IMG/VR virus record: IMGVR_UViG_3300025086_000135
Span: 1-31,079 of that record
Length of the DNA stretch: 31,079 nucleotides
Direction: 5' to 3' (one strand)
Origin: a virus
In this document: in pieces, positions 10,736 through 28,520 of the stretch
How the letters are laid out: each line of letters starts with the position of its first letter
Numbering within the stretch: position 1 is the first letter of the stretch
The notes under the pieces: model-generated
The model's input: the letters and a program-made list of their open reading frames with translations, nothing else
What the model was told of the DNA's origin: nothing
Database searches by the model: none
Position numbers and translations under genes: made by a program

Positions 10736-11266
10736 ATGTCTTGTAATTTATCGCTATATAGAACAGAACCCTGCAAGGATAGTGTTGGTGGATTAGATAA
10801 AGTTTACTTTGTTAATTATAGTTCTTCTTTGTATTCAACAATTACGTTTGATACAACGAATACAGATGCCATAGAGTCCATTACTGGAACTCCATCTGCA
10901 TACGAATATGATATTAAAGGAACTTCTTCTTTTACACAAAACATCCAAGCTAGTAGAGAAAATGGAACTACTGCTTTCGAGCAAGTTTTAGAATTAACTC
11001 TACACAAACTGACTATAGCAGACCACAAAGAATTAAAATTAATGTCTTTCAATAGACCTCACGTTATTATAAAAGATAACAATGGAAATTACTTCCTAGC
11101 TGGAATAGAGCATGGAATGGATGTTTCAGGAGGAACTATTGTTACAGGTGGAGCTATGGGAGATTTAAGTGGATACACTTTAACTTTAACAGGAATGGAA
11201 AAAGCTCCAGCTAATTTTATGGAGTCTGACCCTGCAACTGTTGGATTTACTGTAGTAAACTCTTAA
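10736..11266 (+). CDS. Putative major tail tube protein
   Basis: 176 residues. The pattern fits phage tail tube proteins: a beta-rich body with SFTQNIQASRENGTTAFEQV near residues 65-85, LTLHKLTIADHKEL, an RPHVIIKDNNGNYFLAG beta hairpin, then a glycine-rich MGDLSGYTLTLTGME close to the C-terminus. Such subunits polymerise into the tube on the tape measure. It lies right after the capsid gene, between two terminators, instead of beside the chaperone and tape measure. Confidence 0.7.
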   Translation: MSCNLSLYRTEPCKDSVGGLDKVYFVNYSSSLYSTITFDTTNTDAIESITGTPSAYEYDIKGTSSFTQNIQASRENGTTAFEQVLELTLHKLTIADHKELKLMSFNRPHVIIKDNNGNYFLAGIEHGMDVSGGTIVTGGAMGDLSGYTLTLTGMEKAPANFMESDPATVGFTVVNS

Positions 11267-11292
11267 ACATAGTAAGTTCTTAAACATAGAAG
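11263..11292 (+). repeat. TTAAACATAG repeat, two diverged copies after tail tube gene
   Basis: TTAAACATAGTAAG at 11263-11276 and TTAAACATAGAAG at 11280-11292, start-to-start 17 bases. The first copy contains the stop codon of the tail tube gene. A terminator hairpin follows immediately. Related to the copies at 18472-18513 and 28144-28261. Confidence 0.75.
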
Positions 11293-11296
11293 ATAC

Positions 11297-11320
11297 AAAG
11301 CCCCTTTATTGGGGCTTTTT
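11297..11320 (+). terminator. Strong intrinsic terminator after tail tube gene
   Basis: Perfect 8-bp stem AAAGCCCC (11297-11304) and GGGGCTTT (11311-11318) with loop TTTATT and continuing T bases. Ends the capsid-tail tube unit. It sits directly before the candidate promoter at 11330. Confidence 0.85.
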
Positions 11321-11329
11321 CTATATAAA

Positions 11330-11354
11330 ACAAAACAGACACTTTTCAGTTATC
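11330..11354 (+). promoter_or_regulatory. Candidate late promoter, copy 3 (ACAAAAC-N11-AGTTATC)
   Basis: ACAAAAC at 11330-11336 and AGTTATC at 11348-11354, spacing 11, followed by TTATT and ATG. The layout is identical to that at 7141 although the spacer sequences differ. It starts 10 bases after a strong terminator, where a new promoter would be expected. Confidence 0.5.
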
Positions 11355-11359
11355 TTATT

Positions 11360-11713
11360 ATGATAAGATTACTTCCTAACTCAAATTCTCAAACAATTAA
11401 GATAATACCTAGAGACAATACCTCTTTGTCAAACATTAGTCTTATAATAACAGAAGATGGAACTAACAAAAGTGAAACACTAACAAGCCTTAGTGCTACT
11501 GTTAATGGAAATTTTACTCATGTCCCAATAACATCCACTATTTTAAAAGAAGGAAGTAGTTATTATTTGCAATTCAGCAAAAACAGTAGTTTATGGTATA
11601 GAGACAAAGCTTATGTTACCTCTCAAACAAATGATGAGGTAATACATACATTGAACACAAACCAATACGACCAATATGGTGAAGGGTCAGAAGACGAATA
11701 TATAGTATTATAA
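11360..11713 (+). CDS. Small beta-rich structural-region protein, unknown function
   Basis: 117 residues from the ATG at 11360 (TTATT-ATG context). A longer frame reaches an ATG at 11309, but that lies inside the terminator hairpin. The protein starts MIRLLPNSNSQTIKIIPRDN, then has alternating beta segments (ISLIITEDGT, SSYYLQFSKNSS) and ends WYRDKAYVTSQTN ... DEYIVL. Proteins of this form frequently precede or follow the portal in flavobacterial phages. An Ig-like or small decoration fold is possible but not shown. Its 3' part shares a 33-base near-repeat with 30655-30687. Confidence 0.6.
   Translation: MIRLLPNSNSQTIKIIPRDNTSLSNISLIITEDGTNKSETLTSLSATVNGNFTHVPITSTILKEGSSYYLQFSKNSSLWYRDKAYVTSQTNDEVIHTLNTNQYDQYGEGSEDEYIVL
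11666..11698 (+). repeat. 33-bp dispersed repeat, copy A
   Basis: Matches 30655-30687 at 30 of 33 bases, including an exact 17-base core GGTGAAGGGTCAGAAGA. Here it is read as YDQYGEGSEDE; at the other site it is read in a different frame. Confidence 0.7.
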
Positions 11714-18471: not shown

Positions 18472-18513
18472 TTAAACATAGTAGGTTTAATTATGCTCTT
18501 AAACATAGTAGGT
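18472..18513 (+). repeat. TTAAACATAGTAGGT repeat, two exact copies after the amidase gene
   Basis: Exact copies at 18472-18486 and 18499-18513, start-to-start 27 bases. The first begins 4 bases after the amidase stop and can fold as ATTAAAC-loop-GTTTAAT. The second ends directly against the ATG at 18514, so it is also the leader of that gene. Confidence 0.85.
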
Positions 18514-22930: not shown

Positions 22931-23488
22931 ATGCTAGACTTGTTGGCTAAAAATCATTTATTGTGGGTAAAAATGGTTTGTAATATGGGATGTCCTAAAC
23001 ATCTTTGTGAAGATATAGTACAAGAAATGTATTTAAAAATAAACAGACTTGTAAAAGATAAAAGAAAAATAATGTATGGTAATGATGATGTAAATAGATT
23101 TTATGTTTATGTTACACTAAGAAATTTATATACCGATTATCAAAAAGCAAAAAACAAATACACCTTTTTTAATTACTTAGAAACAGATGATGCAGATACC
23201 ATACATACAGCAGAGTATTTATATACTGATTCAGATGCAGATAAAGAAGAAGCTTTTTATAAGATAACAAGTAAGATAGCAAAAGAGATTAATTCTTGGC
23301 ACGTTTACGATGCTAAGTTATGTGATACTTATTATAAGAGTAGTATGTCTTTAAGGCAAATATCAAAAGGCAGTAACATTAGTTTAACAAGCCTATTCAA
23401 TTCAATTAAAAATTATAAGAAAATACTTAGAAATAAATTTATAGAAGATGTAGAGGATTACTTAAACGGAGATTATCATTTACTTTAA
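22931..23488 (+). CDS. ECF-type RNA polymerase sigma factor-like protein
   Basis: 185 residues. A region 2-like part covers residues 5-75: HLLWVKMVCNMGCPKHLCED, IVQEMYLKINRL (the usual AEDIVQE-x-F helix), and FYVYVTLRNLYTDYQKAKNK, comparable to the -10-binding helix. After an acidic linker (ETDDADTIHT) a region 4-like helix-turn-helix appears at 125-165: SLRQISKGSNISLTSLFNSIK. This is the size and layout of ECF sigma factors. It is the best candidate for directing host RNA polymerase to phage-specific late promoters such as the motif at 7141, 9211 and 11330. Confidence 0.7.
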   Translation: MLDLLAKNHLLWVKMVCNMGCPKHLCEDIVQEMYLKINRLVKDKRKIMYGNDDVNRFYVYVTLRNLYTDYQKAKNKYTFFNYLETDDADTIHTAEYLYTDSDADKEEAFYKITSKIAKEINSWHVYDAKLCDTYYKSSMSLRQISKGSNISLTSLFNSIKNYKKILRNKFIEDVEDYLNGDYHLL

Positions 23489-25814: not shown

Positions 25815-26321
25815 ATGGAATTAAACAAAACAATTCAAACAAAAGAAATTAGAAATTATGTAGAATCTTGTCTTAACTTAAAATTAAATGTTGTAAGTAG
25901 AAAAAGAAGTTATGTATATGCAAGAGCAATATATTTTAAACTATGCAGAGAGCAAACTAAATTAAGTTTAGCAGATATAGCAGGTACAGTAAATATGGAC
26001 CATGCTTCAGCTTTACACGCTATAAATAATGTTTTCCCTAGTGTAATATTTTATGACAAATACCTCAAAGATGTGTATGATGATTTCAGACTTGATAACA
26101 TACATAAAAACGAAAACATATATGAAAATTATGCTAGATTATTAAGAGAAAATACCGCCCTAAAAAATGATTTAAATTCTATAAAGGAAGACGGAGGTTT
26201 AGAAAAAAGATTTATAAAGTTGATAAATAAAATACCTGAAAGCAAAAAAGAAGATGTTTATGTTAAGCTTGGTGCTATAGTGAATATTGTTAGTCTTGCT
26301 CATGAAAGGGAGGCTGTATAA
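25815..26321 (+). CDS. Stand-alone DnaA domain IV-like DNA-binding protein
   Basis: 168 residues. Residues 25-75 look like the DNA-binding domain of the replication initiator DnaA: SRKRSYVYARAIYFKLCREQ, then LSLADIAGTVN and MDHASALHAINNV, corresponding to the DnaA helix-turn-helix and its (R/M)DHxTVxHA signature. There is no ATPase domain. The C-terminal half is a coiled coil (YENYARLLRENTALKNDLNS) and a second helical part. It could recognise DnaA boxes at the phage origin or compete with host DnaA. Near-consensus boxes lie at 27787 and 28175. Confidence 0.7.
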   Translation: MELNKTIQTKEIRNYVESCLNLKLNVVSRKRSYVYARAIYFKLCREQTKLSLADIAGTVNMDHASALHAINNVFPSVIFYDKYLKDVYDDFRLDNIHKNENIYENYARLLRENTALKNDLNSIKEDGGLEKRFIKLINKIPESKKEDVYVKLGAIVNIVSLAHEREAV

Positions 26322-26541: not shown

Positions 26542-26933
26542 AACCTAATGATGGTAGAAAGAATAATGGCAGAAAGAAAGGAGACAAGTATGGACCAAAG
26601 AAACAGTTAATTAAATCGTCTTCACAATTAACTCCAGCTAAGAAAGAGAGAATATCTATTTATGCGTTAAATGCAATGAAAGATGTTTTTGGTAGTGAAG
26701 AAGAAGCTTGGAAAGCGTTAGCAGAACAAGCTAAGGATTCTTTTGCCCATATGAATTTACTATGGCAATATAGATATGGCAAACCTCAAGATGGAAACGA
26801 AGGAAGTTCTAATAAGAAGTTAGATGTACCTGTAATTAATTTCTATGCTTCCACAAATCAAGTAGAAAAACTAGAAGATACTATAGATATAGAATCTGAG
26901 GAAGTTGACGTAGATAAATTAAATGATGAATAA
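26508..26933 (+). CDS. Putative terminase small subunit
   Basis: 141 residues, directly before and overlapping the large terminase gene by 11 bases. A basic N-terminus (NDGRKNNGRKKGDKYGPKK) suggests DNA binding; a helical middle (AMKDVFGSEEEAWKALAEQA, then FAHMNLLWQYRYGKP) matches phage small-terminase-like proteins; the end is acidic. It would recognise the packaging site and recruit the large subunit. A classical helix-turn-helix is not obvious. Confidence 0.65.
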   Translation: MARAKQNSAYIKPNDGRKNNGRKKGDKYGPKKQLIKSSSQLTPAKKERISIYALNAMKDVFGSEEEAWKALAEQAKDSFAHMNLLWQYRYGKPQDGNEGSSNKKLDVPVINFYASTNQVEKLEDTIDIESEEVDVDKLNDE

Positions 26934-28140
26934 CATAAAGCTTAATGATAAATACAGTTCTTTGTTTACTGCTGATAGTAGATATTTTGTGTGTACTGGA
27001 GGCAGAGGTTCTGGTAAATCATTTGGTGTAGCAGTTTTCTTATTGTCGTTGACTTATGAGCAAGGACATAAAGTTTTGTTTACTAGATATACAATGATAT
27101 CTGCACAAACTTCTATTATTCCTGAATTTATAGAGAAAATAGATTTAATGGGTGTAAACGAACATTTTAGAATAACTAAAGATGAAATCATAAATATGAC
27201 CACAGGGAGCTCAATAATATTTAAAGGTATCAGAACATCAAGTGGTAATCAAACTGCCGCCCTGAAGTCTCTAAATGGCGTTACAACCTTTGTTATAGAT
27301 GAAGCAGAAGAGTTAACTGATGAATCTACTTTTGATAAAATTGATTTCTCTGTACGTTCATTAACTAAGCAGAATAGGTGTATACTTATATTAAATCCAA
27401 CAACTAAAGAACATTGGATATATCAAAGATTCTTTCAGAACTCTGGAGTAAATTCTGGCTGGAATGGTTCTACAAATAAAACAACTTACATACATACAAG
27501 TTACAAAGACAATAAAGACAATTTATCTAGTTCTTTCTTAGAACAGATATTTGAAATGAAACTAAAAAGACCAGACAAGTATGAACATCAAATTCTTGGA
27601 GGTTGGTTGTCTTCAGCAGAAGGAGCTATATTTAGAAATTGGAGAGTAGGAGATTATATACAAACAGAGGTTACTTGCTATTGTCAAGATTTTGGATTTT
27701 CAGTAGATTTAACAACTCTTGTAAAAATATCAGTAGACAAAGCTTTAAGTAAATTATATGTAAAAGAGATTTATGGTAAGGCAGGTTTATCCACGACCGA
27801 TATAGCCATGAAGAATAAAATGGAATGTGGAGCAGATTTAATTATATGTGATTCTTCTGAGCCACGTCTTATAAAAGAGATAAAGCAGAAAGCAGATTTA
27901 AACATAAGACCTACAATAAAAAAGAAAGGTAGTATACTTTCTGGTATAGCCTTAATGCAAGACTATGAGATTGTAGTTGATAGGAAGTCTCATGGTATTG
28001 TAAGAGAATTAAATAATTATGTATGGCAAGAAAAGAATACTAAGCCAAACATTGGTTATGAACATTACATAGATGCCATTAGATACGGATTGACATTTCT
28101 TATACAAGGTCAGAACTCTGGCAAGTATGTAATTAGGTAA
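26923..28140 (+). CDS. terL: Terminase large subunit
   Basis: 405 residues. ATPase motifs: Walker A TGGRGSGKS at 25-33, Walker B TFVIDEAEE at 122-130, and the coupling motif LILNPTT at 155-161. The RNase H-like nuclease has CQDFGFSVD with Asp256, LIICDSSEP with Asp310, and EHYIDAIRYG with Asp384. This is the packaging motor that pumps DNA into the procapsid through the portal and cuts genome ends. Two ATGs in tandem (26923, 26926) are possible starts. It lies far downstream of the portal, and near-DnaA-box TTATCCACG occurs within it at 27787. Confidence 0.95.
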   Translation: MMNNIKLNDKYSSLFTADSRYFVCTGGRGSGKSFGVAVFLLSLTYEQGHKVLFTRYTMISAQTSIIPEFIEKIDLMGVNEHFRITKDEIINMTTGSSIIFKGIRTSSGNQTAALKSLNGVTTFVIDEAEELTDESTFDKIDFSVRSLTKQNRCILILNPTTKEHWIYQRFFQNSGVNSGWNGSTNKTTYIHTSYKDNKDNLSSSFLEQIFEMKLKRPDKYEHQILGGWLSSAEGAIFRNWRVGDYIQTEVTCYCQDFGFSVDLTTLVKISVDKALSKLYVKEIYGKAGLSTTDIAMKNKMECGADLIICDSSEPRLIKEIKQKADLNIRPTIKKKGSILSGIALMQDYEIVVDRKSHGIVRELNNYVWQEKNTKPNIGYEHYIDAIRYGLTFLIQGQNSGKYVIR

Positions 28141-28143
28141 TCA

Positions 28144-28261
28144 TTAAACGCAGTAGGTATTTTATAAGGCATGATTATCCACGACTTAATCATTAAACAT
28201 AGTAGGTTTTTTGCCTAATCGTTAAACATAGTAGGTTTTGTAATCATTAAACATAGTAGGT
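28144..28261 (+). repeat. TTAAACATAGTAGGT repeat cluster, four copies after terL
   Basis: Copies at 28144-28158 (TTAAACGCAGTAGGT), 28193-28207, 28222-28236 and 28247-28261 (all three exact). Start-to-start distances are 49, 29 and 25 bases. The surrounding TAATC(A/G) before and TTTT after are partly shared. The first begins 4 bases after the terminase stop, exactly as the copy behind the amidase gene does. Confidence 0.85.
28175..28183 (+). promoter_or_regulatory. Near-consensus DnaA box TTATCCACG
   Basis: One mismatch to TTATCCACA. The same 11 bases TTATCCACGAC also occur at 27787-27797 in terL. The phage encodes a DnaA domain IV-like protein at 25815. Confidence 0.45.
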
Positions 28262-28292
28262 TTTTACTAATGCTTTATTCTTTCTGCTTTTT

Positions 28293-28380
28293 GATATTTC
28301 AAATATCTATTTGTTAATTGCTAGTAGTCAATACAAAATAGTTTTGTTAGTCTCAATTATTTTTTGTATACGCGTACGCG
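28293..28380. promoter_or_regulatory. Three palindromes, candidate operators
   Basis: GATATTT-C-AAATATC at 28293-28307, ACAAAA-TAG-TTTTGT at 28333-28347, and CGCGTACGCG at 28371-28380. All are perfect and their centres are 40 and 36 bases apart. They lie just upstream of the promoter at 28425, where regulator-binding sites would be expected. Confidence 0.55.
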
Positions 28381-28424
28381 CAATTATAATGACAGATTAA
28401 ATATGTTAAACTTTTGTTAATGCT

Positions 28425-28456
28425 TTTGACATGTTAATTATTTGTTTATATATTTG
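28425..28456 (+). promoter_or_regulatory. Strong host-type promoter of the small-gene region
   Basis: TTTG at 28425-28428, exactly 20 bases, TATATTTG at 28449-28456: a full match to the Bacteroidota TTTG-N19-21-TAnnTTTG promoter. The first gene starts at 28521, leaving a leader of about 60 bases. Likely early promoter, active without phage factors. Confidence 0.75.
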
Positions 28457-28520
28457 GGTAAACAAAAAAACAATTACAGAGCGACTTATTTAAAACATAA
28501 ATAATTAATAATTAAACACT

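Follow-up and report, generated by a model that had tools for sequence, protein, structure and literature searches.

In E. coli DnaA, R399 contacts TTA and helix 5 contacts TnCACA (PMC5742627), and residue 434 lies where helix 5 begins, in the part that reads bases (PMC5043019; PMC5742627). When bound inside a transcribed region, DnaA is described as acting as a roadblock to RNA polymerase (PMC11317965). Stoperators are asymmetric sites that point one way in short intergenic gaps and impose a polar block on elongation, which is lost when the site is reversed (PMC9283540; PMC6550527). Finally, stand-alone DnaA C-terminal domain proteins recur in flavobacterial phages, including Harreka_1, phi46:1, phi19:1, Gundel_1 and P12024L. 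In the open-access papers that we searched, we found neither a description of the system reported below nor a function for these flavobacterial-phage proteins.

The uncultivated marine phage investigated here, whose named relatives are flavobacterial phages, encodes the same kind of stand-alone DnaA C-terminal domain, together with an array of short sites of a kind not seen in Harreka_1, phi46:1 or P12024L. Like the stoperators of the cluster A mycobacteriophages L5 and TipsytheTRex, these sites are numerous, 12-14 bp long, asymmetric and intergenic, keep one orientation relative to transcription and vary in sequence among related phages. Stoperator phages, however, carry more than 20 sites, read by a repressor with HTH and stoperator domains, whereas we found 8-14 sites in tandem clusters at stop codons, a protein with a DnaA fold and no lysogeny module in the window (the whole stretch of DNA that was analysed, 31,079 nucleotides of IMG/VR record IMGVR_UViG_3300025086_000135). 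No integrase or repressor was found among the annotated ORFs of the window, which comes from a linear and possibly fragmentary record. The DnaA-like gene and its base-reading segment are as follows.

25815..26321, plus strand: stand-alone DnaA domain IV protein of 168 aa, with the fold in residues 7-97 and a helical C-terminal tail in residues 102-167 (from Pfam, AF2 and synteny)
25995..26018, plus strand: codons for residues 61-68 (MDHASALH), with which the recognition helix begins, aligned with E. coli residues 432-439 (RDHTTVLH); base-contact positions from PMC5043019

An earlier note on this DNA had described the protein as a DnaA DNA-binding domain lacking an ATPase, and this description was borne out by profile, by fold and by 80 relatives. 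Bac_DnaA_C (PF08299) matched residues 26-73 with an E value of 1.6e-9 and a score of 38.1 bits, above the Pfam cut-off of 31.5, and this ORF was the only one in the whole record to match it. No other Pfam family exceeded its cut-off in the protein, and an AAA+ ATPase (DnaA domain III) was not found. An AF2 model computed from an alignment of 30 own-locus sequences (pLDDT of 86.7) was then superimposed on known structures. Residues 7-97 of the model overlaid residues 374-467 of E. coli DnaA domain IV in complex with a DnaA box (1j1v; Z 14.1, rmsd 2.1 over 90 residues), and the M. tuberculosis DnaA-DBD (3pvp) gave a Z of 13.9. Other DnaA structures ranged from Z 9.8 to 13.9, and the best non-DnaA row reached Z 6.5. 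In a phmmer search of the PDB, the M. tuberculosis DnaA DNA-binding domain was the sole match, and a weak one. Because the Pfam match agrees with the fold match of the model to DnaA, the next fold standing at Z 6.5, the assignment holds: as judged from sequence profile and predicted structure, ORF 25815-26321 encodes DnaA domain IV on its own, followed by a helical tail. Beyond the domain, the model contains helices at residues 102-125, 131-138 and 142-167, the first of them zipper-like in appearance.

The similarity to DnaA domain IV extends from the fold (Z of about 14 to 1j1v and 3pvp) to the base-reading positions, since the alignment places R29, D62 and H63 at the positions of the base-reading residues R399, D433 and H434, and the R399 position is retained in most members. 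Unlike DnaA, the phage protein has no domains I-III, carries an alanine at the position of T435 and possesses a helical tail of its own.

The earlier note had further proposed that matching DnaA boxes lie near the gene. In the window, however, TTATNCACA was absent (2.5 copies expected) and TTATNCAC occurred twice (6.4 expected), and the TTWTNCACA box class was not enriched in 17 genomes. The count of boxes against chance, which had been set beforehand as the refuting test, was thus at or below chance level; the box part of the proposal is refuted, and standard DnaA boxes were rejected as not enriched. The sequence TTATCCACGAC, quoted as occurring twice within 400 bases, was indeed located at 27787 and 28175, with no further copies in the window, but a role for these copies as matching boxes did not survive, since neither is conserved. 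The 27787 copy consists of terL codons (G-L-S-T-T) As a background for such recurrences, 12 pairs of 11-mers with at least five G/C recur within 400 bp in the window, several of these being overlapping words of one repeat.

The 28175 site turned out to be enclosed by a four-copy direct-repeat array, TAATCATTAAACATAGTAGGTTTT (28138-28265), which had been overlooked. The core of this array, TTAAACATAGTAGG, starts at 28144, 28193, 28222 and 28247, straight after terL (stop at 28140), and its motif is the most repeated 11-mer of the window. Further copies were observed past a capsid-cluster gene and past the lysis amidase, in all three places on or just past the stop codon; the copies at 11263 and 11280 carry 1-2 changes.

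26923..28140, plus strand: large terminase subunit gene (terL), the conserved neighbour of the array
28141..28520, no strand: intergenic gap of 380 bp, the largest of the window, containing the array and the promoter-like site
28144..28157, plus strand: gene-end site TTAAACGCAGTAGG with 2 mismatches, 3 nt past the terL stop
28193..28206, plus strand: gene-end site TTAAACATAGTAGG, terL array
28222..28235, plus strand: gene-end site TTAAACATAGTAGG, terL array
28247..28260, plus strand: gene-end site TTAAACATAGTAGG, terL array
28426..28454, plus strand: promoter-like TTGACA-17-TATATT, 11/12, a consensus match only, past the array and ahead of the next genes
18472..18485, plus strand: gene-end site TTAAACATAGTAGG, 3 nt past the amidase stop (18468)
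18499..18512, plus strand: gene-end site TTAAACATAGTAGG, immediately 5' of the next ATG
11263..11276, plus strand: gene-end site TTAAACATAGTAAG, which overlaps the ORF 10736-11266 stop codon
11280..11293, plus strand: gene-end site TTAAACATAGAAGA with 2 mismatches, 17 bp beyond the 11263 site
11297..11318, plus strand: intrinsic terminator adjoining the 11263/11280 pair and shared by the relatives listed

No intrinsic terminator was found at the amidase cluster.

The conservation of the sites was then investigated in 80 loci that IMG/VR yielded in a search for terL. Nearly every locus of this set with enough flank has the DnaA-like gene upstream of terL, and nearly every terL-clade locus that is long enough has an array directly past terL. 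Counted over whole contigs, the motif ranks first among the 11-mers in most related A-type contigs, and the copies listed have no counterpart on the opposite strand. Across 11 related contigs, some of which are also related to each other, we counted 86 forward copies and 1 reverse copy, whereas shuffling gave an expected total of 0.43 per strand; of the 86 forward sites, 83 fall outside ORFs. Clusters often open with a copy that overlaps a stop codon or begins 3 nt past one. The clusters occupy homologous places from contig to contig, namely the ends of terL, of the homologue of ORF 10736 and of the amidase/holin genes, and in some contigs the end of a block of small genes. Intrinsic terminators are associated with these places: they were detected at 13 of 23 cluster-bearing gene ends versus 30 of 128 other gene ends (Fisher p 0.002), and a terminator follows every capsid-side cluster among those listed. 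A terL-based scan of genome contigs yielded no prophage relatives.

Arrays of this kind were absent from phages that encode a DnaA-like protein but have a remote terL (such as L239-L260) and from P12024L, whose DnaA-like gene is divergent; the remote-terL phages rule out a general coupling of phage DnaA-like proteins to arrays. In P12024L (L084), the divergent protein is encoded at 10926-11387 next to ERF, and the deposited annotation gives it no function. The phi46:1 repeat AAAAAGTTATCTAAAAGTTTT lies upstream of a promoter-like TACTTTTG and is seemingly a promoter element. Another word, GCTATACAC, is over-represented in the DnaA-like-encoding L123, L124, L125, L140, L149 and L176, but many of its copies fall in coding frames and some of the words occur on both strands; CTATACACA agrees with a DnaA box at 7/8 positions. 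In L006-L083, about 100-200 bp past the terL array and ahead of the next genes, we observed further conserved elements, namely near-palindromes resembling TTATTTAGAATGATTCTAAATAG and a block resembling GTATACGCGTACGCGC, followed by a promoter-like TTTATATATTTG. Three records labelled as Staphylococcus or Shigella phages (OR849898.1, OR844989.1 and OQ791282.1) were picked up by the DnaA-like query or by a terL of the Riemerella type, and their labels may be wrong or mixed.

The motif itself exists in several types. Type A is TTAAAC-RY-AGTA with a G-run or a C-run, type B is GTTTAATATGATGGGG, type C is TTTAATRYAGG, type D is CCGTCTTTGTTATGG and type E is GTTTAAYATTA (L264-L268). A T-run type, T, has CTCTTTTTTTTAGTA (L040), and type F has TGTAAATTCAATAGG (L126), located about 1.4 kb past terL and ahead of a terminator. 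At the position of E. coli residue 434, all 39 A-type proteins carry H and all 34 proteins of types B and D carry R; Y is found in type T, and H in types C, E and F. Motif type tracking residue 434 in this way is suggestive, not proof, because the terL tree contains only two changes of that residue (H to R and H to Y) against six changes of motif type, and an independent-pairs test of covariation had only 3 supported pairs, so that its sign test was unable to reach significance. In types C and E, the motif changed and H was retained. L041 and L043 encode an H-type protein within the B-type terL clade, on contigs that stop before any array, and scans for longer contigs of this type found none with an array in view.

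Similarity of the sites to the DnaA box is partial. TTAAACATA agrees with TTATNCACA at 6/8 positions, a likeness that comes from free alignment and could be a chance product, and the TTAAACACA variant (L051) agrees at 7/8. The suggestion that the protein occupies host boxes gains no support: among the conserved phage sites, every A-type copy departs from TTATNCACA at position 4 (T to A), and usually elsewhere too. The cognate sites of the protein are probably TTAAACRYAGTA rather than the DnaA box.

The spacing of neighbouring sites was found to be unusual. Start-to-start distances of 13 to 53 bp, in the window (28144-28260) as well as in the arrays of L006-L268, are nearly all odd, with 82 odd versus 15 even values among non-redundant linkers (p 2e-12); some repeats were counted by simple regular expressions, and a few even spacings are chance matches or reflect a degenerate middle copy. 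This preference is present in types A to E. Among the other repeated 8-mers of these loci, the split was 319 to 249. The geometry of B-DNA offers no obvious means of sensing parity.

The short one-way repeats are probably the DnaA-like protein's own sites. The protein is the best candidate for their reader because it is conserved together with them, has the right fold and faces a motif that resembles a box. Most likely, the targets of the 168-aa protein are asymmetric sites of the phage itself, whose core TTAAAC-RY-AGTA is a diverged DnaA box, and not host DnaA boxes. The sites stand in tandem clusters where gene blocks end, on their 3' side, and all are oriented with transcription; we infer that the bound protein would form a polar roadblock or aid termination, separating the transcription units of the phage in the manner of stoperators. 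The protein may therefore be a punctuation mark in the reading of genes, not a starter of replication. As a whole, the reading in which it binds the gene-end sites as a polar, stoperator-like punctuation system for transcription is our preferred one, put forward tentatively. Slightly more tentative still is the wider proposal that such a system was built on a captured DnaA domain IV, that the protein evolves together with its one-way sites across marine phages of the flavobacterial type, and that the odd spacing hints at a geometric or mutational rule.

The best-surviving alternative is that the terL array is the origin of the phage: the repeats would be iterons that are bound by the DnaA-like protein, mark the adjacent AT-rich region and recruit the host helicase, the other clusters being secondary. 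This is unlikely but deserves weight, and it could hold together with the punctuation reading; it also keeps alive the earlier note's suggestion that the protein recruits replication proteins to phage DNA, here by way of the array at 28144-28260. It draws on the direct repeats within the largest intergenic gap (380 bp), on a low-GC stretch at 28-30 kb and on the location of the DnaA-like gene within a recombination/replication block (ERF, AAA, RusA, exonuclease); profile searches identified no replicative helicase or primase in the window. Direct repeats beside an AT-rich intergenic region, as in an iteron origin, are present, but confinement to the origin fails at the 11263 and 18472 clusters and in the relatives. 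An origin does not account for the further copies at two to three more gene ends, over stop codons and ahead of terminators, and the protein has no AAA+ domain for melting DNA.

Rather improbable is a function of the sites in RNA, as a 3'-UTR element for termination, processing or mRNA stability with another reader and an unrelated DnaA-like gene. Strict co-orientation with transcription and the placement at stop codons and ahead of terminators would suit it, but the fold of the array is not significant (z -0.42), the linkers form no more hairpins than shuffled linkers and pair less than these do, and an Rfam search gave no match, so that an RNA structure of the array was rejected; moreover, the change in motif accompanies a change of residue in the DnaA-like protein. 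That the terL array is a packaging site (pac or cosB) read by the small terminase is highly improbable: the array does lie directly past terL in nearly all terL-clade loci with enough sequence and is missing from the remote-terL phages, but identical sites in the same orientation occur 10-17 kb away, past other genes. The least probable reading, late promoters for a phage sigma factor, can point to the one-way sites and to ORF 22931-23488, a weak match to phrog_1740 RNA polymerase sigma factor (E 2.2e-4), but the sites are single blocks with no second element at a fixed distance, stand in tandem 13-53 bp apart and, on the capsid side, have terminators immediately 3' of the pairs; like the packaging reading, it misfits dispersed clusters ahead of terminators.

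If proteins of this family do read one-way gene-end sites, the DnaA C-terminal-domain proteins of flavobacterial phages would gain a testable role, and a reader of DnaA boxes would have been turned into a transcription punctuation factor. Stoperator-like control would then have a second origin beyond the mycobacteriophages, and the pairs of matching protein and site that occur in nature would permit the dissection of DnaA-box specificity.
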